Virus record (IMG/VR): IMGVR_UViG_3300009132_000011
Span: 1 to 43,042 of that record
Direction: 5' to 3' (one strand)
Origin: a virus
Length of the DNA: 43,042 nucleotides
Shown: positions 98 through 40,525 of the stretch, in pieces
Layout: every line of letters begins with the position of its first letter
Numbering within the stretch: the stretch's first letter is position 1
Program-made: the position numbers and the translations under genes
Notes under the pieces: generated by a model
Told to the model about the DNA's origin: nothing
Databases searched by the model: none
Seen by the model: the letters and a program-made list of their open reading frames with translations, nothing else

Positions 98-126
98 TTG
101 CGTCAAAATATAAGCAATGCTACAAT
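98..126 (+). promoter_or_regulatory. Promoter with embedded 15-bp palindromic element (site 1)
   Basis: A -35 TTGCGT (98-103), a 17-nt spacer and a -10 TACAAT (121-126) are visible. The recurring element ATAAGCA-A-TGCTACA occupies 110-124, so its TGC forms an extended -10. It lies 11 nt before the start codon at 136. Bases 1-97 hold no gene I can support; a short open frame from 3 to 113 may be the tail of an upstream gene. The promoter call is inference from the match to sigma70 spacing. Confidence 0.6.
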
Positions 127-135
127 GGGGACATC

Positions 136-543
136 ATGAATATCGCATTAAAAGACATAGAAGAAGCCACGATTGGCCAACTGCTGCAAGATTACAAACA
201 CTTAAAAGACCGAAAGAGAGCAATCGAATCTGGGGAGCTGAAGGCCATTAAGGCTTCGCTGACTGACATGGAGCGCGTGATTACCCGCAAGATGTCAGAC
301 CTTGGCGTGCGTCAAATGGTGGATGAAGACAACACTGCCACCTTCTCCCTCTCCGAAGAAATAGTGCCGAAAGTCGATGACTGGGATTCGCTGTACAACT
401 ACATCTCTGCAAACGGCTATTGGCATTTGCTGTACCGGAAGATCACTGCCCGTGCTTATCGAGAGATTATTCAATCAGGCGAAATTGTACCTGGTTGTGA
501 ATCTGAAGTAGTTACCCGGCTTTCGATGCGTTCCAAAAATTAA
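136..543 (+). CDS. Conserved phage protein of the replication module, function unknown
   Basis: This 135-aa soluble protein starts at an ATG preceded by GGGGA. Its N-terminal half (about residues 8-55) is charged and helical, with coiled-coil character. The C-terminal half has a DWDSLYNYI segment and ends in a PGCESEV...RLSMRS pattern, which I recognise from a family of small proteins beside phage replication genes. No catalytic motif is visible. It is the first gene after promoter site 1 and lies 21 nt before the next gene, so it is likely co-transcribed with the polymerase genes. A role with single-stranded DNA or recombination is possible by context only. Confidence 0.8.
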   Translation: MNIALKDIEEATIGQLLQDYKHLKDRKRAIESGELKAIKASLTDMERVITRKMSDLGVRQMVDEDNTATFSLSEEIVPKVDDWDSLYNYISANGYWHLLYRKITARAYREIIQSGEIVPGCESEVVTRLSMRSKN

Positions 544-564
544 CCAACCAACCAAGAGAAATAC

Positions 565-1269
565 ATGACTAAAAAAGATATCTCAACACCCAAAGGTAGT
601 AGCATTGCTTCTGTTCCGTCATTCCTGCAGGTAGATAAGCCTGCTGGCAATGAGAACGTCACCAGTGACGACATGCAATTGCCGCGTCTTAAACTGACGC
701 AAACCCTGTCACCCGAACTCGATTCTGGATCGGCCTCCTATATTGAAGGTGCAAAAGCCGGACAGATCATCAACACCGTCACGCAAGAAGCCGCTGACTC
801 ACTTAACGTGGTCAACATCTTCTACAAGCGTGAGTTCGCTGTCTATCAGAAACGCGAAGCCGGCAGTGGTGGTTTCCAGGGTGCTTTCGAAACTGAAAGC
901 GCCGCGTTAGAGCACATCCGAAACATCGGTGGAACGCCTGACAAGTACATCGTTAAAGAAACCGGCAAGCATCTGCTGCTGCTTCTTGACGAAGATGGCA
1001 ACCCCACGATGGAAGCCATGTGCATGATGGACGGCTCCAAGATTCAGACCAGCAACCAGTGGAACACTTCGATCGCCATGATCAAAGGCGTTGACCGGTT
1101 TGCCAGTGTCTGGAACCTGTCAACTGTCAGACAGTCCAATTCCAAGGGCTCCTGGCACAACTACGCCGTGAACTTCGTCGGCTATGTTGACGAAGAGTTG
1201 TACAACACTGCGAAAGCGTTGTACGAAAAGATTGCTCCTGCAGATACACCTGCAGCGAAAGCAGCCTAA
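565..1269 (+). CDS. Conserved phage protein, possibly ssDNA-binding or replication accessory
   Basis: This 234-aa protein starts at an ATG with a purine-rich AAGAGA upstream. It has a disordered Ser/Pro-rich N-terminus (about 1-38), then an LPRLKLTQTLSPEL segment of the kind seen in phage proteins coded next to family A polymerases. A mixed alpha/beta body with several conserved Trp (WNTSIA, SVWNLS, SWHNYAVNF) follows, and then an Ala/Pro/Lys tail. No enzymatic motif is seen. Its position just before the polymerase suggests a replication accessory or single-strand binding role, but this is inference. The 9-bp core AGCATTGCT of the genome-wide element occurs inside it at 601-609. Confidence 0.78.
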   Translation: MTKKDISTPKGSSIASVPSFLQVDKPAGNENVTSDDMQLPRLKLTQTLSPELDSGSASYIEGAKAGQIINTVTQEAADSLNVVNIFYKREFAVYQKREAGSGGFQGAFETESAALEHIRNIGGTPDKYIVKETGKHLLLLLDEDGNPTMEAMCMMDGSKIQTSNQWNTSIAMIKGVDRFASVWNLSTVRQSNSKGSWHNYAVNFVGYVDEELYNTAKALYEKIAPADTPAAKAA

Positions 1270-1349
1270 CCCATCCTCCTCCTATGGGTTGATTAGCAGG
1301 GTTTCCTAACATTTTCCCTGCTGTGCTGGGCATCACTTAAAACTGCCCA
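1268..1349 (+). other. Three consecutive hairpins between the accessory gene and the polymerase
   Basis: Three perfect inverted repeats follow one another: AACCCAT/ATGGGTT (1268-1274 with 1284-1290, loop 9), AGCAGGG/CCCTGCT (1295-1301 with 1316-1322, loop 14) and TGGGCA/TGCCCA (1327-1332 with 1344-1349, loop 11). None is followed by a clear T-run, so simple intrinsic termination is not strongly supported. mRNA processing, attenuation or a replication-linked structure are alternatives. Confidence 0.55.
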
Positions 1350-1372
1350 TTTCTTTGTGCCGGAGAATGCCA

Positions 1373-1627
1373 ATGCTGATTAAATTTTTAGCCCGTGACA
1401 TGCGCACTAACCTCGAATACGAATTTGTGACGCCTGTAAATCCTGAACTTCACGACTGGGAGCGTCAGGCATGGCGTGACATTGTGAAAACTTGGACACT
1501 GCCTAACGCAGTGCAGCCTGTTGAATGGAAACAATATGCAGAACGTAACAATCGACTTCGAAACTCGATACAACAAGAAACTGTCCCTGAAAAAGCTCAC
1601 GACAACGGAGTACATCTGGCACGATGA
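1373..1627 (+). CDS. Small protein overlapping the polymerase start
   Basis: An 84-aa frame. I chose the ATG at 1373 because GGAG at 1362-1365 lies 7 nt before it; a TTG at 1355 would also keep the frame open. The first 55 or so residues (LIKFLARDM...HDWERQAWRDIV) look like real protein with Trp-rich helices. The last 31 codons overlap the start of the polymerase in another frame. No family is recognised. It may be a small accessory protein translationally coupled to the polymerase, or the frame may be open by chance. Confidence 0.5.
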   Translation: MLIKFLARDMRTNLEYEFVTPVNPELHDWERQAWRDIVKTWTLPNAVQPVEWKQYAERNNRLRNSIQQETVPEKAHDNGVHLAR

Positions 1628-3308
1628 TTTCTTTGTTTTTGGCGTTGGGATCAAGATTGAAGACGGGCCTACAAAATGGGTTCCCTACCAGGAGATCGAT
1701 GCAGCGTTTGCTGAAATCGACTGGGATCGAACGAATCTTATTGCGCATAACTGTCGGTTTGAGGCTGCAATACTTGCTTGGCATTACCAGCGTGAACCTG
1801 TTTTTTACTCGTGTACGATGTCGATGGCAAAGGCTCAGAGACACTACGAGTCGGCTTCACTGGCTGCAGTGGCGCGTCGTACCTTCCCAAATGACCCTTC
1901 CATGCGTAAAGGTGACGAGCTGGTCATGGCTGAAGGTATGGATTTTCTGGATGAAACGACTGAGCAGGCAATTGCCGGTTATTGCATACAGGATGTGGAA
2001 CTCTGTCACGCGATATATGAACGCCAGATCTTTGATTATCCAGTTGCCGAACAGGCGCTGATTGACCTTACCATTCGTATGTTTGCCGACCCCCGGTTGG
2101 CGCTCGACACCACTATCCTCAACTCTGTCCTAGAGGCAGAGATAAATAAGAAAGCACAAGTCCTTGAAGACTTGGGCGTATCCAGCACGCAACTCGCGTC
2201 AAACAACCAGTTTGCTGAGTTACTCGAATCCAAAGGGGTGACTGTGCCGATGAAGACTTCTCCGCGCACAGGCAAGCAGACCTACGCTTTCTCTAAAACC
2301 GACCTGGGTTTTCAGAAACTGATGGATAACCCTGTGGCTGCGCCGTTTGTTGAAGGACGCCTGACAATCAAATCAACGCAGAACCAGACCCGCGCTGAAC
2401 GCCTGCTGCGGATCGCAGAGTTTACAGAGAACGCCGAACTGCCTGTGCCCCTTAATTACTACGGCGCACATACCGGCAGGTTCTCCGGTGCTGACAAGGT
2501 GAACCTTCAGAACTTCCCGCGTGGCGGTGATCTAAGAAAGGCTTTAGTCGCGCCGAGCGACGGGTGGCTCGTGTCGGTTGACGCTTCTCAAATTGAATGC
2601 CGCATGCTGGCATGGCTGGCAGGCGAACAGGACCTGCTTGAACAGTTCAGGAACAAGGTCGATGTCTACAAAGCTTTTGCTTCTACTATATATAACGTTC
2701 CTGCTGACCAAGTGGACTCAACACAACGCTTTGTCGGCAAGACCGCGATCCTGGGATTGGGTTACGGCATGGGGGCTGTTAAGTTCCGTGCCATGTTGGA
2801 GGCTGGCGCCACCGGCCCCAAGGTGTTGATTAGCGACGATGAGGCTGTGTCGATCGTCGCGAAGTACCGTTCCCAGTTCCCCTGGATAACGACTTTCTGG
2901 AACTTCTGCAATAACAAAATCTCTCACATGAAACGATGGGATTGGCAGGGTGAATCTTGGAAGGGTGTTATTCATTTCAAACCCTGGTCTATCGAACTGC
3001 CGAATGGCTTGGCGTTGAACTACGACCCCAATGAGTTCTCTGAAGAAACAACCTTCGGCGGCAAGATCACTGAAAACATCGTGCAGGCATTAAGCCGGAT
3101 AGTGCTGAGTGAGCACATGCTTGAAATTGATAAAAGGTTCCCAGTCGCCTTTACAGTGCATGATGAGATCACCTCATACGTTCCTGAGTATGGCGATCCA
3201 GAGGACGTCCTGCGTGAGATGACTGAAATATTCCAATACGCGCCTAACTGGTGCGGTGACATTCCACTGGACGCCGAAGGCTCCTACGACCACTTTTACT
3301 CAAAATGA
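1536..3308 (+). CDS. polA: Family A DNA polymerase with 3'-5' exonuclease
   Basis: This 590-aa polymerase replicates the phage genome. It has the exonuclease plus polymerase layout of T7 and lacks a 5'-3' exonuclease domain. Exo I is DFET at residues 6-9, Exo II is AHNCRFE and Exo III is YCIQDVE. Polymerase motif A is VDASQIE with catalytic Asp about 349. Motif B runs from R to YG with Lys about 402 and Tyr about 410. Motif C is VHDE with Asp about 543. The ATG at 1536 is preferred over a TTG at 1521 because it leaves Exo I close to the N-terminus, as is usual. The residue equivalent to E. coli Pol I Phe762 is Leu (about 406). The stop overlaps the next start as ATGA. Confidence 0.96.
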   Translation: MQNVTIDFETRYNKKLSLKKLTTTEYIWHDDFFVFGVGIKIEDGPTKWVPYQEIDAAFAEIDWDRTNLIAHNCRFEAAILAWHYQREPVFYSCTMSMAKAQRHYESASLAAVARRTFPNDPSMRKGDELVMAEGMDFLDETTEQAIAGYCIQDVELCHAIYERQIFDYPVAEQALIDLTIRMFADPRLALDTTILNSVLEAEINKKAQVLEDLGVSSTQLASNNQFAELLESKGVTVPMKTSPRTGKQTYAFSKTDLGFQKLMDNPVAAPFVEGRLTIKSTQNQTRAERLLRIAEFTENAELPVPLNYYGAHTGRFSGADKVNLQNFPRGGDLRKALVAPSDGWLVSVDASQIECRMLAWLAGEQDLLEQFRNKVDVYKAFASTIYNVPADQVDSTQRFVGKTAILGLGYGMGAVKFRAMLEAGATGPKVLISDDEAVSIVAKYRSQFPWITTFWNFCNNKISHMKRWDWQGESWKGVIHFKPWSIELPNGLALNYDPNEFSEETTFGGKITENIVQALSRIVLSEHMLEIDKRFPVAFTVHDEITSYVPEYGDPEDVLREMTEIFQYAPNWCGDIPLDAEGSYDHFYSK

Positions 3309-3502
3309 AACCTGTAATCCTCACCGACAAATACGTAACCACTCTAATCGACGAAGACTTATGGCAGCAGTTAAGCGCAATAGCAAACGAAAAAAATCTA
3401 GATCTAAGCTACGTGGCAAGGGAACTAATACAACAGGGATTGCAGCATTGGACGGAGATCCAAGACCTCGTACCAAACCACCCAAAGCCAGTATCACAGT
3501 AA
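3305..3502 (+). CDS. Ribbon-helix-helix-like small protein
   Basis: This 65-aa protein starts inside the polymerase stop (ATGA), so it is probably translated by coupling. Residues about 14-46 run as a short strand, DEDLWQQLSAIANEKN, then LDLSYVARELIQQGL. This is the spacing of a CopG/Arc-type ribbon-helix-helix DNA-binding fold. It could be a small transcription factor, but the match is by pattern only. The second half of its reading frame is overlapped by another open frame (3361-3654), and an A-rich heptamer at 3391-3397 lies at the crossover. Confidence 0.6.
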   Translation: MKPVILTDKYVTTLIDEDLWQQLSAIANEKNLDLSYVARELIQQGLQHWTEIQDLVPNHPKPVSQ

Positions 3503-3654
3503 CCAAAGATCTTTATATAAAAAACTTCTACAACGTAACGATCGCTATCGGACGGATGAAGGGGATAACCACGTTTATCAGTGACGAAGAACCGACCAGA
3601 AAGCACCCGGTCATCGCTAAGTTATTGAAACAAATGCGGGATTCTTATTCTTGA
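3361..3654 (+). CDS. Small basic protein, or the -1 frameshift extension of the preceding gene
   Basis: This is a 97-aa frame if read from the ATG at 3361, which has no good ribosome site. The first 40 residues are very basic (KRNSKRKKSRSKLRGKG). The C-terminal 55 (TVTKDLYIKNFYNV...MKGITTFISDEE...) look like a folded domain. It overlaps the ribbon-helix-helix gene by 142 nt in the -1 frame. The weak start and convincing C-terminus suggest either a separate overlapped gene or a product reached by a -1 shift at the A_AAA_AAT heptamer (3391-3397) of the upstream gene. Function unknown. Confidence 0.5.
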   Translation: MAAVKRNSKRKKSRSKLRGKGTNTTGIAALDGDPRPRTKPPKASITVTKDLYIKNFYNVTIAIGRMKGITTFISDEEPTRKHPVIAKLLKQMRDSYS

Positions 3655-3679
3655 TGTATAATATAAGCATTGCTCATAC
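3651..3679 (+). promoter_or_regulatory. Promoter with embedded palindromic element (site 2)
   Basis: A -35 TTGATG (3651-3656), 17-nt spacer and -10 TCATAC (3674-3679) are in the same register as site 1. The element ATAAGCA-T-TGCTCAT lies at 3663-3677. A better -10, TATAAT (3657-3662), sits directly upstream of the element and may be the real one. It precedes the nuclease gene. Confidence 0.6.
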
Positions 3680-3692
3680 ATGAGGTAATGCT

Positions 3693-4076
3693 TTGGCCAC
3701 AGAGTCCGACCGGATCAGATCGATCCATAAGTACCTGCCCCCAGAAGTTTATGCCTGGAAGATAGCCGACCGCTTTCACCGTGGAATCTGCGACGCTTAT
3801 TACGGCGGTGATAAAGCCGACCTCTGGGTCGAGTACAAGTCGCAAGAAATGACCAAGCGGAGGCGCTGTGTCCCCCGCCTTTCCTCATTACAGCGCGAGT
3901 GGCTGCGCCGCCAACACGAGAGAAACAGACAGGTCTGGGTAATCCTGATGACCGATGTCGGCCATTACATAATGAAAGATCCTGATTCCTGGGAAGCAGG
4001 TGTCTTGCCGTGGGACGCTTGTTTAGCAAAGTACAAGATGGTTGCTGAAGCCATCAAGGAGCACTGCTGTGGCTAG
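3693..4076 (+). CDS. PD-(D/E)XK nuclease, VRR-NUC-like
   Basis: This 127-aa protein starts at TTG, supported by GAGG at 3682-3685 seven nt upstream. Residues 43-49 read DLWVEYK, which fits the D...ExK core of the PD-(D/E)XK fold. It is followed by LSSLQREWLRR and VWVILMTD, matching the helix and strand after the core in VRR-NUC and Holliday-junction-resolvase-like phage nucleases. Metal ligands would be Asp43 and Glu47 with Lys49. It probably resolves or trims DNA during phage replication or packaging. It overlaps the next gene by 8 nt and heads its own promoter-led unit. Confidence 0.75.
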   Translation: MATESDRIRSIHKYLPPEVYAWKIADRFHRGICDAYYGGDKADLWVEYKSQEMTKRRRCVPRLSSLQREWLRRQHERNRQVWVILMTDVGHYIMKDPDSWEAGVLPWDACLAKYKMVAEAIKEHCCG

Positions 4077-4767
4077 AGTGCTCATAATAGGTGACACTCA
4101 CTGCCCTGTCATGTTAAAGGGTTACGTTGAGTTTCTTAAACAAATCCACGACCAATGGAATTGCGATACTGTCGTCCATATAGGTGACATGGTTGACTGG
4201 TCTTCGATAAGTTACCATCCGAAGGCGCCTTCAATGAAGGATTCCGAGCGCGAGTATAAGAAAGCCTACCGGCAGGTGCAGGAACTATACGAGGCGTTCC
4301 CCCAAGTCACTTGGTTAATTGGCAACCACGACGCGCTTACAGAACGGCAGGTGTTTGACGCCGGACTGCCCTTCGAAGTGTTAAAAGACTACAAAGAACT
4401 GTGGGGAGTACACGAGTGGGAGATCAAGCCCCGATACTCAAAGCACATCGTTGACGGTGTTATTTATATGCACGGTGACGCGGGGAAAGGCGGCCGGTTC
4501 CCTGCCTTATCTAATGCCGAGGCGGAGTTTCAATCAGTTGTCCAGGGCCACGCGCACAGCGCGGCGGGCGTCCAGTATGGCGCAAACCAAAACATGAGGT
4601 ACTTCGGCATGCAGGTTGGCTGCGGGGTTAATTACAAAGCAGCCGCGATGAGTTACGGCCATAAATACACGAGGAAACCCATCATTGGATGCGGAGTTGT
4701 TATTGACGGCAAGACGGCGGTCTTCGAGCCAATGGGTCTAAAGAACCGGTACAACGTCCTTCGTTAA
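4069..4767 (+). CDS. Calcineurin-like metallophosphoesterase
   Basis: This 232-aa protein starts at a GTG with AAGGAG seven nt before it; an upstream TTG at 4042 keeps the frame but lacks such a site. The metal-binding motifs come in order: GDTH (8-11), GDMVD (39-43), GNHD (85-88), a later HGD and GHAHS. It is therefore a complete two-metal phosphoesterase. Phage members are usually annotated as phosphatases or nucleases of unknown substrate. It is coupled to the nuclease gene, so a DNA or nucleotide substrate is likely. Its stop shares bases with the stop of the convergent gene on the other strand. Confidence 0.9.
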   Translation: MARVLIIGDTHCPVMLKGYVEFLKQIHDQWNCDTVVHIGDMVDWSSISYHPKAPSMKDSEREYKKAYRQVQELYEAFPQVTWLIGNHDALTERQVFDAGLPFEVLKDYKELWGVHEWEIKPRYSKHIVDGVIYMHGDAGKGGRFPALSNAEAEFQSVVQGHAHSAAGVQYGANQNMRYFGMQVGCGVNYKAAAMSYGHKYTRKPIIGCGVVIDGKTAVFEPMGLKNRYNVLR

Positions 4768-5063
4768 TGAAAAGTAAACGACACGGTATCTTCCGCGTCT
4801 ACTGTTCCATCAGGTAGTTCTACATAAAAGGCCCCGCGCTCTTCGTTCCATTCCAATAGGGCCCCATCAAGATAAGGCGCTGCTGCAGCGTCAAGCAATA
4901 CGTGCGCTCCCAGCGGAAAGAATAGATCTTCAGGCGGTTCCGTTACGGGGTCAAAAGAGATTTTGTAGACATCATCTTCGCGATGGATCGATACGTACAG
5001 AAACCCAGGGACGGCATCAAAAAACGCTTCCAGCGTGTCTACAGCTTCGTCGCTGATTTTCAT
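4764..5063 (-). CDS. IscA/HesB-fold protein lacking all cysteines
   Basis: This 99-aa protein lies alone on the minus strand inside a plus-strand block. MKISDEAVDTLEAFF, then EPPEDLFF, then HVLLDAAAAPYLDGALLEW follow the A-type Fe-S carrier pattern (N-terminal helix, EDxxF, hxVD...S..YLxG..hDW). However, no Cys is present, so the three cluster ligands are missing and it cannot bind Fe-S in the usual way. I start it at the ATG at 5063; the frame is open to 5108. Promoter-like boxes lie at 5099-5127. It may have been recast as a structural or regulatory partner. The fold assignment is inferred by eye. Confidence 0.6.
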   Translation of the reverse strand: MKISDEAVDTLEAFFDAVPGFLYVSIHREDDVYKISFDPVTEPPEDLFFPLGAHVLLDAAAAPYLDGALLEWNEERGAFYVELPDGTVDAEDTVSFTFH

Positions 5064-5098
5064 AGAGTTGCCCACTTTTGGTGCCGAGGAAGCGCTTA

Positions 5099-5127
5099 AT
5101 AGTAGCATGGCTTATGAAAAAAATCAA
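5099..5127 (-). promoter_or_regulatory. Minus-strand promoter with variant palindromic element (site 9)
   Basis: On the minus strand TTGATT (5127-5122), a 17-nt spacer and TACTAT (5104-5099) are seen. The element at 5101-5115 reads ATAAGCC-A-TGCTACT, one core mismatch from the others, and again gives an extended TGC -10. It would serve the cysteine-less IscA-fold gene. With site 3, 48 nt away, it makes a divergent control region between that gene and the HTH regulator. Confidence 0.55.
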
Positions 5128-5162: not shown

Positions 5163-5177
5163 ATTAGCATTGCTGTA
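5163..5177 (+). promoter_or_regulatory. Palindromic element ahead of the HTH regulator (site 3)
   Basis: ATTAGCA-T-TGCTGTA lies 38 nt upstream of the regulator start. A clear -35 at the standard distance is not seen. TGTATT just before the core could be a -10. If the regulator binds this element, the site would allow autoregulation. Confidence 0.5.
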
Positions 5178-5215: not shown

Positions 5216-5605
5216 ATGTCTCCAAAAGATGATATTCAGAGACGCACCATCACTCAAAAAGATAGAACTATTTCTAAGAAGTTAAGGGATCTTTGGGAAG
5301 TGAAAAAAGAAACCCTCGAACTCAGCCAGCAGGACATGGCTGAAAAGTTAGGGATTACCCAATCTGCGTTTTCACAAATGCTTCATGCCCGTATGGTTAT
5401 TACTACAGATCAGATTATTAAAATCTCTCTGGTCTTTAAAGAAAGCCCTACCTTAATTGACCCTACGTTTTATACGCGGTTCGATATCCATAACAAGGCA
5501 GACTTAAAAACCTTTTTGGCTTTGGAAATCGCAAAAATGTCTGAGACTGAGCGGAAAGAGCTGTTAGAAGGCGCACCCGCAAAGCGTCGAAGACTAAGTA
5601 AGTAA
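5216..5605 (+). CDS. Cro/CI-family helix-turn-helix regulator, candidate phage repressor
   Basis: This 129-aa protein has AAAGGAAA 8 nt before its ATG. An XRE/HTH_3 domain spans about residues 22-70, with the helix-turn-helix at 37-58 (LSQQDMAEKLGITQSAFSQML). The rest is a short helical tail ending in basic residues. There is no LexA-like peptidase domain, so it is not a self-cleaving CI of the lambda type. It lies in the lysogeny module, two genes before Xis and Int, and has the genome-wide element in its own upstream region. It is the best candidate for the protein that binds that element, but no binding evidence exists in the sequence itself. Confidence 0.85.
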   Translation: MSPKDDIQRRTITQKDRTISKKLRDLWEVKKETLELSQQDMAEKLGITQSAFSQMLHARMVITTDQIIKISLVFKESPTLIDPTFYTRFDIHNKADLKTFLALEIAKMSETERKELLEGAPAKRRRLSK

Positions 5606-6320: not shown

Positions 6321-6349
6321 TTGACTTCATCTATTAGCAATGCTTTTTA
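6321..6349 (+). promoter_or_regulatory. Promoter with palindromic element before xis/int (site 4)
   Basis: TTGACT (6321-6326), a 17-nt spacer and TTTTTA (6344-6349) form a promoter whose extended TGC comes from the element ATTAGCA-A-TGCTTTT (6333-6347). It ends 4 nt before the xis-like ATG, so the transcript would be leaderless or nearly so. Confidence 0.6.
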
Positions 6350-6353
6350 TTTA

Positions 6354-6644
6354 ATGAAATCGTATCAACCCTATATGACACTGGATGAGGCCGCAAAATA
6401 CTGCGGCCTAGCCAATGCTGTTTTTGTCGAAAAAGCCTCGGACTTAGGCATCTATCCCTTTCCTTTTATTGACACCCTGTTGTATCGTAAGGAAGATATT
6501 GACGCTGCAATGGCAAGAGCATGGCGAGAATCTATCAACGAAACGGCTCCTGGTATCTCGACTACTTCAAAGAAGGCAAGAGGTCGCGCCGGTCGCTCGG
6601 CAAGGTTAGCGAAGCCGAAGCGCAGGTCCAGCTCACTGCACTAG
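6354..6644 (+). CDS. xis: Excisionase-like winged-helix DNA-binding protein
   Basis: This 96-aa protein starts at an ATG with no Shine-Dalgarno. Residues about 8-50 (YMTLDEAAKYCGLANAVFVEKAS...LYRKEDIDAAM) have the layout of the excisionase/MerR-like HTH_17 family: helix-turn-helix, a small wing, then the typical RKEDID before the last helix. A Ser/Arg/Lys-rich tail follows. It overlaps the integrase by 124 nt in another frame, as xis and int genes often do. Expected role: bending DNA at the attachment site and turning integrase toward excision; it may also regulate transcription. The last 40 residues are in the overlap and less certain. Confidence 0.68.
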   Translation: MKSYQPYMTLDEAAKYCGLANAVFVEKASDLGIYPFPFIDTLLYRKEDIDAAMARAWRESINETAPGISTTSKKARGRAGRSARLAKPKRRSSSLH

Positions 6645-7480
6645 AACGCCGACTCGACGCTCCGCCGCCTGCCGCCGGCCCTGACTTCCTTACCTGGGCC
6701 GAAGAGTATTCCCATTGGCACAGCGGTGAGTTTCCTGATTCATACTATCGCGTTGAGTCGATTATCCGCTGTCACCTGATCCCTGCGTTTGGTGATTTAG
6801 CGATTGGGATGATCACCCCCCGCGCAGTAGAAGCGTATAAGCGTGCCCGTTCGGAAGTAGTGGCTCCCGGCACTGTAGTTAAGGAAATACGCACGCTGCA
6901 GGCCATGATTAACCACGCGGTAACGTGGGATGTGATCCCTCGAAACCCCATTAAGCGCGTAAAAGCACCTAAAGATCTGCGCAGTAAGCCCCCTCGGTGG
7001 TACACCAAAGACGAACTACAGCAGATTTATGGGGCTAGTGAGTACGGCCCTACCTGGCAACTCATGGCAAATACCGGCTTGCGTCGCACTGAGGCAATGC
7101 AATTGGAATGGAAAAACATCGATACGGACAGCATCAGGATCGTATCGGGCGCAGAAGCCAGAACAAAATCCGGCAAATGGAGGCTGGTACCGCTCTCAGA
7201 CGGTGCCAAGAGCGCGCTCAGAGCGTTTAAAGGCAAAGGGCGGGTGTTACCTGAACTTGCGCCCTACTCTTTTTCAAGGGCATTCTCACGTGATGCCATG
7301 CGGTCTGGTTTGGACGGGTCACTTCATTGTTTGCGCCACACTTACTGCAGCCATTTGGTAATGGCGGGCGTCCCGCTGCGCACAGTTCAGATACTGGCAG
7401 GGCATGCCTCTTTCACCACAACTGAGAAGTACGCCCACCTGGCACCTGATCATTTAAAGGGCGCCGTGGTGGACTTGTGA
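6521..7480 (+). CDS. int: Tyrosine site-specific integrase
   Basis: This 319-aa phage integrase has an N-terminal arm-binding region (about 1-45), a SAM-like core-binding domain (about 55-150) and a catalytic domain (about 160-319). Catalytic residues are visible: Arg188 in TGLRRTE, Lys about 216-219 in TKSGKW, His269 and Arg272 in HCLRH, His295 in LAGHAS and Tyr304 nucleophile in TEKYAHL. It is complete. It catalyses integration into and, with Xis, excision from the host chromosome. The attP with a tRNA-Glu 3' half follows directly, so the target is a host tRNA-Glu gene. Confidence 0.97.
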   Translation: MARIYQRNGSWYLDYFKEGKRSRRSLGKVSEAEAQVQLTALERRLDAPPPAAGPDFLTWAEEYSHWHSGEFPDSYYRVESIIRCHLIPAFGDLAIGMITPRAVEAYKRARSEVVAPGTVVKEIRTLQAMINHAVTWDVIPRNPIKRVKAPKDLRSKPPRWYTKDELQQIYGASEYGPTWQLMANTGLRRTEAMQLEWKNIDTDSIRIVSGAEARTKSGKWRLVPLSDGAKSALRAFKGKGRVLPELAPYSFSRAFSRDAMRSGLDGSLHCLRHTYCSHLVMAGVPLRTVQILAGHASFTTTEKYAHLAPDHLKGAVVDL

Positions 7481-7650
7481 CACTGTGCCACCTACATGGC
7501 ATAATAAGCGAATCCTAATACACGCCTAAGTCATTGATTTATTGGCGTCCCCAAGGGGATTCGAACCCCTGTTGCCGCCGTGAAAGGGCGTTATAATTCC
7601 TTTGTTTTCAATGACTTATTTTAATTACTGTGACACCGATTTGGCACAGT
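7476..7650. other. attP: attP: tRNA-Glu 3' half flanked by nested repeats
   Basis: Bases 7543-7590, read on the minus strand, are the 3' half of a tRNA-Glu(UUC) gene: anticodon stem with the CTTTCAC loop, T-arm GGTTCGAATCC, acceptor strand and CCA. No 5' half follows, so it is not a functional tRNA. An 11-bp inverted repeat TAAGTCATTGA/TCAATGACTTA (7527-7537 and 7608-7618) brackets the core. Outside it lie an inverted ACTGTGCCA/TGGCACAGT (7482-7490 and 7642-7650) and a direct TGTGACAC (7476-7483 and 7629-7636), candidate arm-type sites for integrase and Xis. The tRNA match is from memory of gamma-proteobacterial tRNA-Glu. Confidence 0.88.
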
Positions 7651-9515: not shown

Positions 9516-9827
9516 TCACTTCGGGGCAAAAGATTCGCCGCAACCACAGGAATAGAAGTCAGCAGGCGGGGTGATCTTTAATCCAATATGGAATGGGTCA
9601 CTGTAGAGATCCAAATTAGCGCCCTGCAAAACGGTCATACTGTCGGGATCGACAAAGACTTTGCCACTCGCGTCGATACTCGATCCGGTGCAGTTCTCTA
9701 ATGGCACTTTGTCGAGCGAGGCTTTGAAGCCAGTGCAGCCGCCAGACGTTAAGCCAATCTGCAGCCCTTCTGAATCGGTAAGCAATTTGTCTAAGTAGTC
9801 TTGCGCTGCTTGAGATACAGTCATCAT
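9516..9827 (-). CDS. A-type Fe-S cluster carrier (IscA/HesB family)
   Basis: This 103-aa protein has the family's full set of ligands: Cys31 in SGGCTGF and Cys94 and Cys96 in CGCGESF. The central VFVDPDSM...LQGANLDL matches the conserved VD..S..yL.G..hD region. A-type carriers pass iron-sulphur clusters to target proteins, and phage-coded members are known from aquatic phages. It could support host Fe-S enzymes during infection or serve a virion protein. The ATG lies only 3 nt after a palindromic promoter element (site 5) and has no ribosome site, so the message may be leaderless. An extra Cys46 is present. Confidence 0.92.
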   Translation of the reverse strand: MMTVSQAAQDYLDKLLTDSEGLQIGLTSGGCTGFKASLDKVPLENCTGSSIDASGKVFVDPDSMTVLQGANLDLYSDPFHIGLKITPPADFYSCGCGESFAPK

Positions 9828-9829: not shown

Positions 9830-9844
9830 AATAGCATTGCTTAT
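9830..9844 (-). promoter_or_regulatory. Palindromic element directly before the A-type carrier (site 5)
   Basis: On the minus strand the element reads ATAAGCA-A-TGCTATT. GATTAT or TATAAG at its upstream edge could be a -10, and no clear -35 is seen. The start codon follows after 2 nt. Confidence 0.55.
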
Positions 9845-9846
9845 AA

Positions 9847-10221
9847 TCATAGAGAAACTTTAGGACCCTTTAGGATTTCTTCAGCCTGTTCCACAACTTC
9901 TCCCGGTGTGAGGTGGCAATCACCCTCGCGGCAGCGCGTGGAATAGATCATGCAAGATTCTCCACTTGGTGAGTCGATTACAACCGACATGGTTGTTTTC
10001 TCGGCGTTAGTGAACCATACGACTGCGGTATCGCCTTGACTGAACGCAATGACCACAGGTACTTCGGCGTGTGTTTCACCTAGTGCGTTGTATAAGTCCC
10101 GCGTATCCCCGCAAACCATAGGAATAGGTACGTTCCTGCCTTCAAGACCTTCTGGCAGTCCCTGTTGTGCCACAGCGACTGAGGGGAGTAAAAGCGCGGT
10201 AAGGAATATAAGTTTCTTCAT
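9847..10221 (-). CDS. Secreted small protein with paired cysteines
   Basis: This 124-aa protein has a classical signal peptide (MKKLIFLTALLLPSVAVA, cut near AQQ). The mature part of about 105 residues has Cys in PMVCGDTRDLY, GESCMIY and a CREGDC loop, which could form two disulphides. It is therefore exported to the periplasm or outside. I recall similar small secreted proteins in marine phage genomes, without known function. It is followed by the A-type carrier, which has its own promoter element just past this stop codon. Confidence 0.75.
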   Translation of the reverse strand: MKKLIFLTALLLPSVAVAQQGLPEGLEGRNVPIPMVCGDTRDLYNALGETHAEVPVVIAFSQGDTAVVWFTNAEKTTMSVVIDSPSGESCMIYSTRCREGDCHLTPGEVVEQAEEILKGPKVSL

Positions 10222-12016: not shown

Positions 12017-12058
12017 ATTAGCATTGCTTATTATCTAATAAACACAAGGTTATTGCAA
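12017..12058 (-). promoter_or_regulatory. Promoter with palindromic element upstream of the fibre gene (site 6)
   Basis: On the minus strand TTGCAA (12058-12053), a 17-nt spacer and GATAAT (12035-12030) form a promoter. The element ATAAGCA-A-TGCTAAT (12031-12017) starts at the last bases of the -10 and would cover the transcription start. This is the second arrangement of the element, also seen at 36421. Confidence 0.65.
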
Positions 12059-26200: not shown

Positions 26201-28114
26201 CGCTGCTTCTTCTAAAGAAACTTCCTTGCCAACACTTCGTTTTCTGTCAACGCTTTCGACAATTTTTGCAGCTTCGTCTCTGATGCCCTGACGGTAGATG
26301 TCTCCCATTCCGCCTTTTTTGTACTGGGCTATGTTCTTCTTAGCCCATTGCACTTGTTCCTTACTAAACGCATCAGGGTTTTTAGCAATATTGCGAATAC
26401 GCTCAATATCAGTTGCGCTAACAATGCCTGTGTTGTTGACAATGTTAACAGCATTGCTTATGGCTTGACGCGTAGAAAGAATGTTTTGGGCAAATTTAGG
26501 TGTCATCTCGCGCAGTTTCTTATATGCGCGTGCTGTTTGACCTTTCAGCTCCCAGGTCTTGCCGTCTTCATCTCGAACAACTGTATTGCCTTCTCTGTCG
26601 AGCGGGAACTCGACGTTCATCTCAAAGACTTGTGCTTCAGGAGCCGGAAGCGCTTTTACTTCAGGGTTTGATTCTGGCGTCTCAAACGTGGCATCTTCAG
26701 TAGGTGCAGGAGGTGCTTGCTCTTGGGCAGGCGTGTTATATAACGGTGCCATGCCGGCTTTCGTAGCCGTTCCTTCACCTGCGCCTTCATAGTCTTCTAC
26801 ACCAAAGGTTGCATCGCCCTGCTCATCGATGCCGGGTTCTGGCTCAGGGGCAGTTGCCTGACCTTCTTCGTCAACAAAAATAGTATCGGATGCTTCAGGT
26901 GAGAGATTTGGGTTTTCCCCCAACATCTCTCCCATCTGCCCTTCCAGGGTTTCAACATTGCCCTGTGCTTTTTTAAGCCTTTTCTCTGCTTTTTTCTCGC
27001 TACGGTACTCACCAAGGTTGCGTCCAGTAGCAACACCGCCAGCAAGAACACTAGAAGCGACAAGTGCAGTGGCACCCGCGTTTAAGAGACGATGGTAGTC
27101 TTCTTTAGAGAAAGGTGACGGGTCGTTGGTTGCGTCTTTTACCGCAAGGATATTAAGTGCTTCCTGCACCATTTCTTGCGGGACTTCCGCTGAAGCGCCT
27201 ATTCCCGCTTTTTTAAGGATATCGCCTACACGACCGGGGAGCGATGAAGGTCTGCCTTTTAACCCTTTTGGGGCTGTCACCATACCTCTGGCAATGTAGT
27301 AGCCAGGCAGGTTCAACGCACCGGCAGGTATGCCGTACTTTAATGCAGTACCTAGTGTCTCTCCGTCCAACTGGCCTTTTTCAATGTAGATATCAAAAGC
27401 GTTTGCTCCTGATTCCAGACCTGTAAAGAAACCAGTAACAGCAGCCATTTTGCCGGCAGGGACAAATTTGGCTGACTGCTGATGCGCTTGTTTTGCAATT
27501 AAGCGTGATACCTGCTTCTGTACTTTTGGATCATTTAATACTTCTTCCGGCAGGCCCAGGTCTTTTGCAATGGCTTTTGATTTAATATCTTTCTTAACAC
27601 GCTTGAGAATCGGGTTAATTACGCCCCTTCTCAAGAGTTGTGTTCCAGCGCCGCCGGCCAGACTGGCGCCTTCAGCCATTGCTATATAAGCAAGCTGACC
27701 CATTGCCCCCTGTACCCAATCTACAAAATCGCCACCGTCTTCAATATCCGCGATATCGGTAATGCGGGGTGCATCACGTTGGGCCTCGTGAAAGTTAATA
27801 GTCGCACTTTCTATTAGCCTGTCGGCCTCATACGGATCGCCAACATATTCGTTATAAGCAGCGCGAAGGGCTTTAAAAGCACCTATTGCAGAGGAAGTTG
27901 CGGAAGAAACGCCGCGCTTAAAGTCTTCATCCTCGCCGTATTTGCTTTGATTAGACGGCTGAGAACGACTGATAGAGCCACCGCTTAGATAAGCAGTAGC
28001 CTCATCTTGCCTGTGGGCAATATCAAATATCGAATCGAACTGTGAACTTAGTTCAGTTTCAGCAGTTCCGGTCGTCGCAGGAAGCGATGCGTCTCCGAAA
28101 AGATCATCGGTCAT
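20228..28114 (-). CDS. Giant polyvalent ejection protein with metallopeptidase domain
   Basis: This 2628-aa gene is the largest in the window (7.9 kb). Near residue 1670 it has HELGH, with DEWVAD about 40 residues later supplying Glu1712 and Asp1716, the layout of polyvalent-protein zinc peptidases. The N-terminal 380 residues have Gly/Ala-rich hydrophobic helices and an EVPQEMVQEAL motif frequent in injected phage proteins. Pro/Glu-rich linkers separate globular blocks. The last 600 residues are helical with hydrophobic stretches (MNMLVLPMSVFASF, MAGMMMLPLAMLGLAMRDM). It is probably carried in the capsid and injected, to help DNA entry and counter host defences. Inference from family features; domains other than the peptidase are not named with confidence. 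Confidence 0.8.
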   Translation of the reverse strand: MTDDLFGDASLPATTGTAETELSSQFDSIFDIAHRQDEATAYLSGGSISRSQPSNQSKYGEDEDFKRGVSSATSSAIGAFKALRAAYNEYVGDPYEADRLIESATINFHEAQRDAPRITDIADIEDGGDFVDWVQGAMGQLAYIAMAEGASLAGGAGTQLLRRGVINPILKRVKKDIKSKAIAKDLGLPEEVLNDPKVQKQVSRLIAKQAHQQSAKFVPAGKMAAVTGFFTGLESGANAFDIYIEKGQLDGETLGTALKYGIPAGALNLPGYYIARGMVTAPKGLKGRPSSLPGRVGDILKKAGIGASAEVPQEMVQEALNILAVKDATNDPSPFSKEDYHRLLNAGATALVASSVLAGGVATGRNLGEYRSEKKAEKRLKKAQGNVETLEGQMGEMLGENPNLSPEASDTIFVDEEGQATAPEPEPGIDEQGDATFGVEDYEGAGEGTATKAGMAPLYNTPAQEQAPPAPTEDATFETPESNPEVKALPAPEAQVFEMNVEFPLDREGNTVVRDEDGKTWELKGQTARAYKKLREMTPKFAQNILSTRQAISNAVNIVNNTGIVSATDIERIRNIAKNPDAFSKEQVQWAKKNIAQYKKGGMGDIYRQGIRDEAAKIVESVDRKRSVGKEVSLEEAATYQEAKDFIDNDTAMESEVVRTMADDVTPLKARAVDTFEDDVTVNDEEIPTHIIGLNPASGNQANKVPVTDWNQPYRSTTGDRGLARAKAQLQKLTNPSFSGYNEPAAARFREAYPPESTVFEVRAVDVNRNLLPRETSSRNKKVSGHVVTATPTTNTPGLSAPVDSLSPQAISMLQQAADYGQQYVGKPNQYKEALKSTLVFVTEQKAFHGKPDGGLYNTAASAQRYGLARIKKDLESKGKTFKESDYRLVEKTDENGNTGFHFESTKKVKRAVYLPSLMWAGKAIIQSQHNADFEIGANGKGALDALSVGLQAFEQYQAMQGIKLDATNRLAPLLKQDPPKKGEKDTGPKIKINDKKFLFADLVKAATAPPREVTPTIVKYSDERIEDVNEDRQWEQDKAQWAGEHQYDDPSAPYVERIIKDHVLPGLQNMLGWSGETWSGAKGKELPEVWNRSQEFTRAIVNTSVKAAFDPMVSVLFGRPSPGLLSDPQVSRDRLNERDLQTTKANENWQAKVHDHLKERVPALVRDHMLVWADESDTNKIIKLKDADVLEHFLNQPGNDSGQIVGFITEALEELSGDIESNIVNNEKKVKGKKLIAPAGIIPTLIDHKTNGDPVYTYPKSLNHSIAKIEGITAGVRAYAADLADKKIIPQEIAFQSLISKDQLAAETNQQIDPNEREAGDSLIYGRETFGADNASPGRQNFGEASSLQMRDLAQERAKEPTERQTNDTYKLQRAINSVRDAEEKRSENREPLPPIERDATVEYAGPNPDLNQEPSTPVTARGRRDQLLNPRPRTARTGSTAASTPGATYDAAGNLISGKKGTGPSIELPARPRAGAADLPPATEQRRTRPEVEPAPAPTYGVDQAAEDLWAYQVEGKPDVEHAPADVPFKYDPQYVRHTSADGRVSSYGSEEFTRSKITAQLHNLGVWAQETFNFNSQSNFDDQLLFVDETGLDSLIAQNPAHAEQLGKLKKPFKSTTPFRTMYGAGTPLVVMINRDFRYLGNDGNTYRYTEIKSPELFADVITAFGHELGHAVFLNWRDAMPAALTQRLTKEYNEAVPQDKRGTYTQDEWVADQFGLYVRSVAENDGKTEHAPAHWKKLFASIKKLYDQVGRLLKQVLGRTGGVSKPYHDFLQEIANEAGIKARARQWYRQQVLSGVAPEDAILVAKAHMEKAFVKAGLKNPKVAFRDMPRQRRVPVEESAKEQVESTARQAKKDPTQSNDAGEVIETAQKASFFGKEEQNDARRQAESWVDELFRDNPKAVNTINRWGQRAETVLSSVRSRAAALPGGEEIVSLIRQRPGDKATGRGTSEAAERHYYNKWYGRVKPLRKRKGESRREHAERMRALRDEIASGNVETADAKEVQAGLRDFARWMATKQEAAREASLNKDKRAGKTTRAPEDDPTVLRILEGWNMPHNYAVEQLITQPGKERFFELLDKYEKPQFFRDNKNASEADWTAFREYVLKKIVNSEGLLANDYADNLRFNNSRARVLRNIPTWELLGRNGEPTLIDNQFDHAIRNYLHDGARQVAWEERFGGYEQNDTTGQWQWNANRTIKDWHESLKTFDRANGTDMSSEARDLIDVLQGRSNRRLSAKGRMYTNVATAIMNMLVLPMSVFASFPDLAGIAMRADGQYRDLLRNIASSARAAWGSDPEGLREMAESLGIASEHVIQHAFLDEGNAAFDNYSGGKYQKVMQAQEGFFKLIQLEAWTNFTRILAMQTGRNFLDNAYADLQMEKAHPGVFTEQAAAANEAFTELGVTPEEWNAISQLRNSKAPASEFSGYMEELEAQVMNKFVDEAIMRPSAAIKPSWHSDPRWATVAHLKSYFWYMSETYWPRVFKQFGLEKTADGWEMNVNGPAASRILMAGMMMLPLAMLGLAMRDMTYYAFSDAEPPDRDLLDLVGRTGVLGPWTIPMEFADTVDDRGLSGNTIFRNVGPLYGYAYGALTQHPATTLSKSVPGVSWFRAGRDAIKQGTPTFDETLGRS
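26447..26461 (-). promoter_or_regulatory. Intragenic copy of the palindromic element
   Basis: On the minus strand the site reads ATAAGCA-A-TGCTGTT, with a perfect left half and core, in the middle of the giant ejection gene. No -35 at the class spacing is seen. It could be a roadblock-type operator far from any promoter, or chance. Confidence 0.3.
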
Positions 28115-35112: not shown

Positions 35113-36210
35113 TTAGCCTTCAGCGACGTTGATACACACAACACCGAAGTCTTCATCAGACCCGTTAACGGCGCTGTACCATTGCGGTTTCAGCATGCCA
35201 AGGATCTTGGCAATCGAAATACCACGCTGGTTATCGTAGTCAAAGTTTTTCTCCACCCAGTCTGGATTGCCGAGATCGGCCATTGCCAGTGCCTGGGCAC
35301 CACACATCATCATGCGACAACCTGCAACGGTTGGCGTGCCTTCGCCCGCGAAATCGTCAGCGGTATCCCAATGCGGGACATGCCGGAATTCGTGGATCAT
35401 CAGGCCATCCACCAGAAGGTGGCTGGTGCCGGTCCAAAGCTGGTTTCCTTCGCTACGGGGCAGCGCATGACGCGCAGCAGCCATATAGTCGGCATCCAGT
35501 TTCAGAGTGGCCATGACCTGCGGGGTCACAAAGATGTGATACATCTCCTCGCCTTTACCGCTGCGAATTCCCCGGATGTAGTTGTCTTTGGCATAAGCCT
35601 TCAGACGAACAATCGTTTCCCAGGTAGGGGCAACGATGGTGCCGGTGACATCACCTGCTTCGAAGCCGGTGGCTTCCCAGTTCAGGTAGCGGTTAGTTGA
35701 GGGGGCACTAACGTCAGCCGCGTAATCCAGGTTGGCAAACGTATTGTCAGCACGCGCAGTACCGTCAGGACGGTAGTCGTACATCACACCACCCAGCGTC
35801 TGGAACGCCAACTGGTCAATACGATCGGCCAGCCAGTAGGCAAGCTGATCCCGTGAAGCCTCACGGAAGTTCACGATAGAGCGCTGGTCCGCCATCTTTC
35901 CGGTAGTACGGTTAGCGTTCCGCATCTGATCGATTCTGATGACTCGATCAAAGGCGCGGATCTTCTCTTCCCGTCCTTCCATCTGATTGTCGCCGCCAAT
36001 ACCGTCCCCTTCCAGGTCCGTGAGCAGCGTCAGGACAGCACGCGCACCCGCTTCACTTTTGGTGAGTTCGGTGATTCGCTGAATCATCGCGTTCTGTCCA
36101 GTTCCGAGGAACTTGTTCACAAACGCGTTGTTTCGGGCGACTTTCCAAAGATCACGGGACCAGACTGTTTTTTGTTCAGTCGTTAGACTGGCAAAGTTTG
36201 TCTGAGCCAT
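35113..36210 (-). CDS. Major capsid protein, N4 gp56 family
   Basis: This 365-aa protein starts at the ATG at 36210, with AAGGA five nt before it; the frame is open 12 codons further upstream without support. N4-gp56 family marks are visible: TEQKTVWSRDLWKVARNNAFVNKFLG, then DLEGDGIGGDNQMEGREE, FREASRDQLAYWLADRID and WETIVRLKAYAKDNYIRGIR, with VTPQVMATLKLDADYM before the C-terminal part. It forms the icosahedral shell with an HK97-like fold. A dedicated strong promoter with operator element lies about 220 nt upstream, fitting high late expression. Confidence 0.95.
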   Translation of the reverse strand: MAQTNFASLTTEQKTVWSRDLWKVARNNAFVNKFLGTGQNAMIQRITELTKSEAGARAVLTLLTDLEGDGIGGDNQMEGREEKIRAFDRVIRIDQMRNANRTTGKMADQRSIVNFREASRDQLAYWLADRIDQLAFQTLGGVMYDYRPDGTARADNTFANLDYAADVSAPSTNRYLNWEATGFEAGDVTGTIVAPTWETIVRLKAYAKDNYIRGIRSGKGEEMYHIFVTPQVMATLKLDADYMAAARHALPRSEGNQLWTGTSHLLVDGLMIHEFRHVPHWDTADDFAGEGTPTVAGCRMMMCGAQALAMADLGNPDWVEKNFDYDNQRGISIAKILGMLKPQWYSAVNGSDEDFGVVCINVAEG

Positions 36211-36288
36211 TTTTCCTTGTCTCGTAAAGTTATGGGCAGGGGCCAATCCCCCGTCCGTTAATTAACAACCTGTTGCAATCATTTTTGA

Positions 36289-36404
36289 CTGCCTGATTGC
36301 AGGCAGAGGTCGCTTCTTTAACGTGAGGGAACGCCCCGCTGTATCGTCGCGAGTCACGAAAAATGGCACTCGGCTGTGCCCTGCCCTCTGGCGGCGGCCC
36401 AGAG
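36289..36404 (-). other. Structured leader of the capsid gene
   Basis: The transcript from the 36421 promoter would carry about 215 nt before the capsid start. Two perfect hairpins lie in it: CTGCCT/AGGCAG (36289-36294 with 36301-36306, loop 6) and CTCTGG/CCAGAG (36386-36391 with 36399-36404, loop 7). They have no T-run, so mRNA stabilisation is more likely than termination. No gene is seen in 36211-36420. Confidence 0.5.
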
Positions 36405-36420
36405 AATTACGCCCGTTTAC

Positions 36421-36463
36421 ATAAGCATTGCTTATTGTATAAGAAAAATACTTGAAAAGTCAA
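36421..36463 (-). promoter_or_regulatory. Strong capsid promoter with perfect palindromic element (site 7)
   Basis: On the minus strand TTGACT (36463-36458), an 18-nt spacer and TACAAT (36439-36434) form a near-consensus sigma70 promoter. The element ATAAGCA-A-TGCTTAT (36435-36421) is a perfect 15-bp palindrome around its central base and covers the predicted transcription start, the classical place for a repressor. Confidence 0.75.
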
Positions 36464-36590: not shown

Positions 36591-37631
36591 TTATATATCG
36601 CCTCTTAGGCGGGCTAACGTTGACGCTGGTAGAGCATCAAAATCTTCCTCGGTCATGGTAAGCGGGTCGATCTGAGGCGTCTTACCGTGCGAGGTTCCCC
36701 GATCACCGGGCAGTGTAGGAGGCACCTGATTGGCTGCCGCTACCTTCTTCTTTACATTGCCGGTTGCTGCCTGCTGGCTTTCCGCCAACTGCTGCTGCAG
36801 CGGTGCTTTTTCCGGCATCTTCATGGCGACTGCCTGGCGTAATGCCTGGGCAGGGGTGTATTTAGGCATCCCGTCGTCACGCTGCACAGTTGTCAGTGCG
36901 CCCATCAACTCGTTGATTTCTCCGGTTAACTCAGCATTGAAAGCATCTTTGTTCTGAATGTCGAGTTCGGGGTAATCCGAGACGATCTCGTTGGCTGCGG
37001 ACGCCAGATCGGCCTGGATCTGTTCTTGTGAGCGGTTCTGTTCGTAGGTTTGCGCAATCTGATGGTTAAACCGCTGCTCCATCGAGCTTTGCTGGTGCGA
37101 AAGGATGTCTTGAAAGACTTCAGCAGCCTTATCAGGCTCTCCGTCGAGGGTAAGTTCCTGCATCAGCTTGTACTGGCCCGCAAAATCGTAGGTTTCTTCC
37201 TGTGGCGGGGCTTCTGCGGCAGGTTCAGGCTGTTTTCCGGCGTCAATCTGCGCTTGAAGGAACTTCATCTGCTCCTCCATGCGGATTTTGGCCTCTTCCA
37301 GTTCCCTTGTTTTACGAATCTGGCTGTCCAGACGCGATTTCGGGATCATGTGAGGCTTTTCCGGCTCCTCTGGCGCAACTTCTACGGCATCTTCGGCCAA
37401 CGCCTCGGCCTGAACTTCGGGGGCTTCAGGGGCTTCCGCCTCTACCGGCTCAGATTCTTCAACAAAATCCCCGCGATCTTCCTTTGAAGGCTCCCAATCT
37501 TCTTCTGAAGTCAGGATACTTGCGGCATCATCCAAAGACTGCTCATGGGCAGCGTCGGCTGCCTGAGTATCGGTATCGATTGCTGCGGTTTCTTCTACAA
37601 CTTCTTGCTGTGCAAGTGCTTCATTACTCAT
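36591..37631 (-). CDS. Capsid scaffolding protein
   Basis: This 346-aa, strongly acidic protein has an N-terminal 100 residues rich in Glu, Ala and Pro, then a coiled coil (RLDSQIRKTRELEEAKIRMEEQMKFLQAQI). A further helical region follows, and the C-terminus is basic to mixed (GNVKKKVAAANQ) before DPLTMTEEDFDALP. Such composition and the place between portal and capsid genes mark a scaffold that directs head assembly and leaves later. It overlaps the portal gene by 8 nt. Confidence 0.85.
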   Translation of the reverse strand: MSNEALAQQEVVEETAAIDTDTQAADAAHEQSLDDAASILTSEEDWEPSKEDRGDFVEESEPVEAEAPEAPEVQAEALAEDAVEVAPEEPEKPHMIPKSRLDSQIRKTRELEEAKIRMEEQMKFLQAQIDAGKQPEPAAEAPPQEETYDFAGQYKLMQELTLDGEPDKAAEVFQDILSHQQSSMEQRFNHQIAQTYEQNRSQEQIQADLASAANEIVSDYPELDIQNKDAFNAELTGEINELMGALTTVQRDDGMPKYTPAQALRQAVAMKMPEKAPLQQQLAESQQAATGNVKKKVAAANQVPPTLPGDRGTSHGKTPQIDPLTMTEEDFDALPASTLARLRGDI

Positions 37632-39843: not shown

Positions 39844-39845
39844 GT

Positions 39846-40139
39846 TTAGCCTTTGCAGTCAGGGTATGCGAGGAAGGTATGGATCTTTTTCACCATGTTT
39901 TTAGGGATGTACCAAACATTCCCCCAGTACCCTGGTCCCTTCTCTCCTGGGATGTGGGTTTGCGCTAACGTTACCCATTCCTTTGTGTTTTCTACTAACA
40001 ATCCGTATGACACAACTAAAGTCGAATCAGGTTTCGGGTTGTCTATCCAACCGGCTTCTGTACACGCGTCAAGCCAATGCACCGAGACTAGCGGGTGCTT
40101 GACCTTACAGGTATGTTTCTTCTTCGCAGGGGAGGCCAT
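39846..40139 (-). CDS. Small protein before the portal gene
   Basis: This 97-aa protein starts MASPAKKKHTCKVKHPLVSVHWLDACTEAGWID, then SYGLLVENTKEWVTLAQTH and GNVWYIPKNMVKKIHTF. It has a compact alpha/beta look with several Trp and three Cys, and no signal peptide. The start overlaps the preceding gene by 35 nt, and the stop lies 2 nt before the portal start. I do not recognise the family; it may be a head or packaging accessory, as small genes at this place often are. Confidence 0.7.
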   Translation of the reverse strand: MASPAKKKHTCKVKHPLVSVHWLDACTEAGWIDNPKPDSTLVVSYGLLVENTKEWVTLAQTHIPGEKGPGYWGNVWYIPKNMVKKIHTFLAYPDCKG

Positions 40140-40296
40140 CGATATAGTTCATGACTTCAGGGGGCAACTCACCAGTAGACAGAAACAGCGTGTATCCATC
40201 CTGTGCCTTATGCTGATCTCCCTGATACGCAGATTTAAATACGTCCCAGTCGCTGCAGGCCAGCAACGAAGAAGCACGATCCAACATCCCACTCAT
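40105..40296 (-). CDS. Small acidic protein downstream of the MGCGC gene
   Basis: This is a 63-aa protein if started at the ATG at 40296, 7 nt after the stop of the 53-aa gene. The frame is open up to 40506, but that part overlaps the better-supported 53-aa gene and the promoter element. The product (LACSDWDVFKSAYQGDQ...GYTLFLSTGELPPEV.NYIDGL) is acidic and ends CEEETYL. No family is recognised. It is probably translated by coupling. Confidence 0.5.
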   Translation of the reverse strand: MSGMLDRASSLLACSDWDVFKSAYQGDQHKAQDGYTLFLSTGELPPEVMNYIDGLPCEEETYL

Positions 40297-40303
40297 AGCC
40301 CAT

Positions 40304-40465
40304 CTACTTATCTTTTCCAGAGGATTTTTGAGGGTCAGCAACGAAGAAATTTTTACCGCCGATTGATATAGGCTTATCGCCAGCAAGTACCTCTTGCACT
40401 CGCGCGCGTGTTGCCGCTGCCACCTTTTTAAGTTTTTCGCGTCTTTGCGCGCATCCACATCCCAT
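40304..40465 (-). CDS. 53-aa basic protein with MGCGC start
   Basis: This 162-nt gene has ATG at 40465 and AAGGGA six nt upstream. The product begins MGCGCAQRREKLKKVAAATRARV, a Cys pair followed by a basic helix, and ends with GGKNFFVADPQKSSGKDK. It is the first gene after the 40499 promoter element in the head block. The good ribosome site and protein-like composition favour it over the longer open frame in the same stretch (40105-40506). Function unknown. Confidence 0.65.
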   Translation of the reverse strand: MGCGCAQRREKLKKVAAATRARVQEVLAGDKPISIGGKNFFVADPQKSSGKDK

Positions 40466-40496
40466 GATTTGTCCCTTTGCAGGAATCCGTATTTAA

Positions 40497-40525
40497 ATAT
40501 TAGCATTGCTTTTATGAAAAGTCAA
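40497..40525 (-). promoter_or_regulatory. Promoter with embedded palindromic element at the head block (site 8)
   Basis: On the minus strand TTGACT (40525-40520), a 17-nt spacer and TAATAT (40502-40497) form a strong promoter. The element AAAAGCA-A-TGCTAAT (40513-40499) lies in the spacer and gives the extended TGC -10, exactly as at sites 1, 4 and 9. It leads into the head gene block. Confidence 0.75.

Follow-up and report, generated by a model that had tools for sequence, protein, structure and literature searches.

Single palindromic sites dispersed over the promoters of a temperate podovirus-like phage, probable operators of one CI-type repressor

The virus record IMGVR_UViG_3300009132_000011, of which we analysed the whole stretch of 43,042 bases (the window), carries a short palindrome, AGCA-W-TGCT (AGCAWTGCT), at many gene starts. 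A first-pass annotation had read these sites as a genome-wide operator set under a single regulator. We asked whether the set is real, what it does at the promoters and which protein is likely to bind it.

The window phage is temperate and podovirus-like. It encodes a portal protein (phrog_156), a major head protein (phrog_334), an internal virion protein (phrog_511), a family A DNA polymerase and a tyrosine integrase (phrog_1, E 5.6e-64). As expected of a temperate phage, the integrase comes with a probable attachment site, since its gene adjoins a tRNA-Glu 3′ end:

7541..7588, strand not assigned: 3′ end of a tRNA-Glu gene adjoining the integrase gene, the probable attP

This tRNA-Glu 48-mer is identical in 96 genome stretches and, as many gamma- and zetaproteobacterial genomes contain it, does not settle the host. 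Among annotated phages, the closest portals (Pseudomonas phage KPP25, Acidovorax phage AP1) reach about 38% identity with that of the window, and those of short IMG/VR contigs 78–100%. Part of the phage genome is probably missing from the record, because the relative L008 has terminase genes upstream of its fibre-side genes and no terminase was found among the window ORFs examined; the terminase promoter has probably been cut off by the window end.

The core occurs 10 times in the window. Dinucleotide shuffles (n = 100) gave a mean of 0.38 copies and a maximum of 3, so that in this control, named in the first-pass annotation as one that could refute the set, no shuffle came near 10 (0/100); the enrichment claimed there was right, but its chance expectation of about one copy was generous. 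When all 9-bp palindromes centred on A/T or G/C were counted, AGCAWTGCT stood well apart from the rest (10 copies against 3 for the next). Noncoding DNA makes up 4.6% of the window, yet it holds 8 of the 10 copies (binomial P 8.5e-10), each directly upstream of a transcription unit as judged from gene order. The eight copies listed in the annotation were all found, as was its one-mismatch copy at 5101-5115, which is also promoter-placed, but the list had missed two copies inside ORFs, at 598-612 and 26447-26461. Given the shuffle expectation of 0.38 copies in total, chance could account for the two intragenic copies, though not with certainty; the copy at 598-612 may be such a chance copy.

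A 15-bp matrix derived from the nine promoter sites and scanned over the window picked out 11 places at 16.6–23.8 bits, everything else scoring 11.1 bits or less; the high scores of the nine follow from the way the matrix was built, whereas those of the two intragenic copies do not. The consensus is a 15-bp dyad, A T W AGCA W TGCT W A T, with A at the outermost conserved position in 16 of the 18 half-sites of the promoter sites, and the copy at 36421-36435 is, as claimed, fully palindromic over 15 bp, with an A/T centre. A palindromic site has no orientation of its own, so the 'both orientations' of the annotation holds for the genes only. The operator set is confirmed as real, and the annotation had somewhat understated it. 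A text search of the literature for the motif returned only unrelated sequence matches.

The sites, the units downstream of them and the candidate repressor gene are as follows:

98..126, + strand: promoter TTGCGT-17-TACAAT with operator 110-124 (ATAAGCAATGCTACA) in its spacer, driving 136-3654 (minor head/Pam3 gp33- and gp34-like proteins, DNA polymerase A)
598..612, strand not assigned: operator-like copy AGTAGCATTGCTTCT inside the Pam3 gp34-like gene 565-1269
3651..3680, + strand: operator 3663-3677 with TTGATG 15 nt upstream of the core and a weak -10, driving 3693-4767 (helicase/nuclease-like protein, metallophosphoesterase)
5099..5127, - strand: operator 5101-5115, one mismatch, core AGCCATGCT (minus strand) in the spacer of TTGATT-17-TACTAT, driving the leftward gene 5063-4764
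5163..5177, + strand: operator upstream of the repressor gene, TTGTGT 13 nt upstream, no clear promoter register
5216..5605, + strand: 129-aa CI-type repressor, candidate binder of all sites, recognition helix TQSAFSQ
6321..6350, + strand: promoter TTGACT-18-TTTTAT with spacer operator 6333-6347, driving a small ORF (about 6375-6644; a possible excisionase) and the tyrosine integrase 6521-7480
9830..9848, - strand: operator 9830-9844 directly after the -10-like GATTAT; downstream, the A-type Fe-S carrier gene 9827-9516, then genes down to 7650
12017..12058, - strand: promoter TTGCAA-17-GATAAT with operator 12017-12031 immediately downstream of the -10, driving 12001-10244 and 10221-9847
26447..26461, strand not assigned: operator-like copy inside the ORF 28114-20228, with TTGACA on the + strand 14 nt upstream of the core
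36421..36463, - strand: promoter TTGACT-18-TACAAT, its -10 followed directly by the perfect palindromic operator 36421-36435, driving the major head protein gene and then late genes as far as 12071
40497..40525, - strand: promoter TTGACT-17-TAATAT with spacer operator 40499-40513, driving about 40466-36591 (portal, then the following gene)

The nine units are thus those of the polymerase, 3693, the leftward 4764 gene, the repressor, the integrase, the Fe-S/lysis side, 12001, head-tail and portal. Two further assignments of the annotation were borne out, in that an operator lies upstream of the fibre genes (10244-12001) and another upstream of the Fe-S gene (9516-9827, a match to PF01521, E 3e-8). 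The product of this phage gene resembles A-type Fe-S carriers, and the gene opens an operon that has an operator to itself. The late region also contains a single ORF of 2628 aa (20228-28114) and, at 12422-14917, a large tail-fibre protein with collagen repeats and Mtd_N (PF18454), the major tropism determinant N-terminal domain, a name that comes from Bordetella phage BPP-1.

The sites keep a register with the promoters. Read in the direction of the downstream gene, a TTG lies exactly 15 nt upstream of the core in five of the nine promoter sites (core starts 113, 3666, 5104, 6336 and 40502), and no other offset recurs at more than two sites; such a coincidence has P about 4e-7, or 3e-5 when corrected for 70 offsets. 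At these five sites the operator fills the -35/-10 spacer of a sigma-70-like promoter, most clearly at 40499, 110 and 5101 (minus strand). Cores starting at 36424, 12020 and 9833 begin one base after a -10-like hexamer (TACAAT, GATAAT and GATTAT, respectively), and the promoters at 5166 and 9833 are weak by consensus. Promoter scores of single sites are not rare in noncoding DNA, and therefore register and conservation carry the argument. Since the sites stand at the promoters of all units, late genes included, and several of these promoters are poor by consensus, a phage activator exerting positive control through them could be envisaged; we regard this as quite unlikely, because a position within the spacer or over the start region, and not upstream of the -35, is typical of repression, and because the same sequence forms CI/Cro operator pairs in other phages (see below).

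We then considered conservation, which the annotation had set as a check. Close relatives of the phage (L005-L010 and L012) keep the site at their portal and/or head promoters with differing flanks, and L007/L008 keep it at the terminase promoter too. In distant terminase relatives (29–52% identical; 0.91 Mb), the motif occurs 0.38 times per 43 kb, which is chance level. Integrase relatives (about 50% identical) likewise did not carry it above chance, and a search by portal found no prophage relatives in genome contigs. Since the site is kept in the close relatives and falls to chance density beyond them, the dispersed set appears to be a trait of a close clade, as far as the collections searched show. 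The density control also bears on the idea that the phage exploits a host regulator, LexA-like or another global one. Some phages do use host LexA boxes, and a palindromic, promoter-placed motif would suit such a regulator. By contrast, in 0.55 Mb of host-type DNA, taken from the surroundings of candidate attachment sites in possible hosts, the motif has a density of 0.31 per 43 kb, again chance level, and the same motif stands in phage-specific CI/Cro regions of phages of differing GC content, which makes a host origin very unlikely.

What, then, binds the sites? The 129-aa protein 5216-5605 matches lambda repressor structures (phmmer against the PDB: 1lli, E 7.1e-5, residues 8-77) and scores over the cut-off of PF01381. 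Its matches are to HTH families only, and the S24 self-cleaving C-terminal domain is absent from it. In lambda repressor, Gln44 contacts the A at operator position 2, and the conserved outermost A of the window sites fits this contact. Single-sequence structure prediction of the repressor was of low confidence (pLDDT 51), and we draw no conclusion from it. No homologs of the repressor were found in viral contigs, so its co-inheritance with the sites could not be assessed in relatives; none of the window polymerase were found there either.

A scan of IMG/VR with the pattern TTGAC-N10-AGCAWTGCTWAT returned relatives, chance hits and, in addition, unrelated phages with paired operators about 25 bp apart around CI/Cro genes. 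Their helices are:

L034, L026, L027: CI helix NQSMVSQ
L014/L040/L047: CI helix GQSAFSQ
L044: helix TQGAISQ, with single operator copies on either side of its CI

As these phages were selected by operator, they do not by themselves prove a helix rule. Repressors fetched by protein similarity provide a fairer test, in which 140–160 bp upstream of each was inspected for AGC-N3-GCT; of those with a Q[SG]..[SN]Q helix, a class defined after the helices had been inspected, 4 of 5 had the motif, and of the others 0 of 16. The five are:

Pseudomonas phage phita81A, helix QSTVSQ: AGC-N3-GCT upstream
PAN70, helix QSTVNQ: AGC-N3-GCT upstream
RacR-like 153-aa protein of plasmid pD17EC0246-6, helix SQGTVSQ: AGC-N3-GCT upstream (TTAGCCCCGCTAA)
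Halomonas phage H4907, helix QSAVSQ: one weak copy upstream
Leaf58, helix QSVFSQ: no AGC-N3-GCT upstream

The motif was absent from P22-type C2 repressors although their helix (NVAISQ) also has SQ, and therefore the first helix residues matter too. In Acidovorax phage AP1, three copies of AGC-N3-GCT (AGCGATGCT, AGCATGGCT, AGCGATGCT) precede the CI, whose helix is ASMLSQ. These are variant copies; of its three exact core copies, two lie inside genes and one (5568) is paired with AGCAACGCT 25 bp away. The helix of the window repressor, TQSAFSQ, fits the Q[SG]..[SN]Q class that appears to be linked to this operator.

These observations argue for the single regulator that the annotation had proposed: the promoter register, the conservation in relatives, the lack of enrichment outside the clade, the homology to the lambda CI DNA-binding domain and the resemblance of the recognition helix. 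We consider, with a probability of roughly 0.8, that a single phage repressor uses the sites as its operators, and that this is most likely the 129-aa CI-type protein 5216-5605, whose binding is predicted from sequence. A different phage regulator is conceivable, such as the 65-aa ORF 3305-3502, which lies in the early region and looks ribbon-helix-helix by eye; small proteins of this type bind short palindromes. However, that ORF has no Pfam match, and phages with the same operator have CI-type repressors with a matching helix and adjoining sites, so we regard such a regulator as unlikely.

If the CI-type protein is the regulator, its dimers would bind each site and exclude RNA polymerase, a steric form of repression, and in the prophage one protein would shut the replication, integration, head, tail, lysis-side and accessory units. 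The site at 5163, together with that at 5101, would probably serve autoregulation of the repressor. A lambda-like cascade would be absent and, as the protein is without a RecA-cleavable domain, induction would need another route, for example an antirepressor or dilution of the repressor; we found no gene that would provide one. Tentatively, and at somewhat below even odds, we propose that a single short, non-cleavable CI-type repressor acts through a single operator at every promoter, late ones included, so as to silence the whole genome, and that induction acts on the repressor.

How does this compare with known systems? Lambda CI and the lambdoid OL/OR regions share with the window a homologous DNA-binding domain, a dyad operator with the outer-contact A, and operators that overlap promoters. 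By contrast, the window repressor has no S24 C-terminal domain, and the window has single operators spread over the genome (two of them 62 bp apart near the repressor) in place of OL/OR triplets, the integrase operon and each of the late structural operons having one of its own. No Cro was found; the divergent ORF 4764-5108 is without a family match. The P1 C1 and phiC31 repressors have operators dispersed at many promoters, as in the window, although their repressor families and operator sequences, as far as is known, differ from those of the window.

In Cluster A mycobacteriophages (L5/Bxb1), one repressor has sites distributed over the genome, as is likely here; these stoperators, however, are 13–14 bp, without dyad symmetry, number 20–30 per genome, lie mostly outside promoters and are oriented with transcription (PMC6550527), whereas the window has about 11 symmetric 15-mers, 9 of the 11 at promoters. 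E. coli RacR and CB of the telomere phages N15/phiKO2 are also prophage repressors, and CB likewise has no detected self-cleavage site; unlike the window sites, those of RacR lie in the racR-ydaS region (PMC11014345), and the five operators of CB are at cB-cro and repA (PMC4997575). AP1, which also belongs to the portal lineage of the window (38%), phita81A and the IMG/VR phages L034, L026, L027, L014/L047 and L044 share AGC-N3-GCT operators and a similar recognition helix, but AP1, phita81A and the IMG/VR phages have clustered operators, about 25 bp apart, in conventional CI/Cro regions. The arrangement thus resembles, on its sequence features, a dispersed-operator system, in which one repressor serves many separate promoters, and lacks the defining features of both lambda immunity and Cluster A.

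If this reading is true, an environmental podovirus-like lineage uses a lambda-CI-type DNA-binding domain in dispersed-operator mode, and the model names the promoters expected to be silent in the prophage. Helix and operator appear to match across unrelated phages, which could also yield a testable rule for predicting operators where a phage repressor is uncharacterised.

A leader (36205-36412, - strand) separates the head-protein gene from its promoter. It is conserved among L006, L008, L010 and L012 and appears to be structured, with a hairpin CTCTGG-GCCGCCG-CCAGAG showing compensatory changes at 6 of 6 pairs; the fold of the window leader has z -2.7, and the leader has no Rfam match. Within the corresponding leader of L010, an extra operator copy (AGTAGTAGCAATGCTACT) lies at 2010-2018. 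Two of the terminase relatives carry nine copies of TATTTAAATA at a spacing of about 40 bp (L204:9102-9420 and L205:3416-3734), which are possibly iterons or partition sites.
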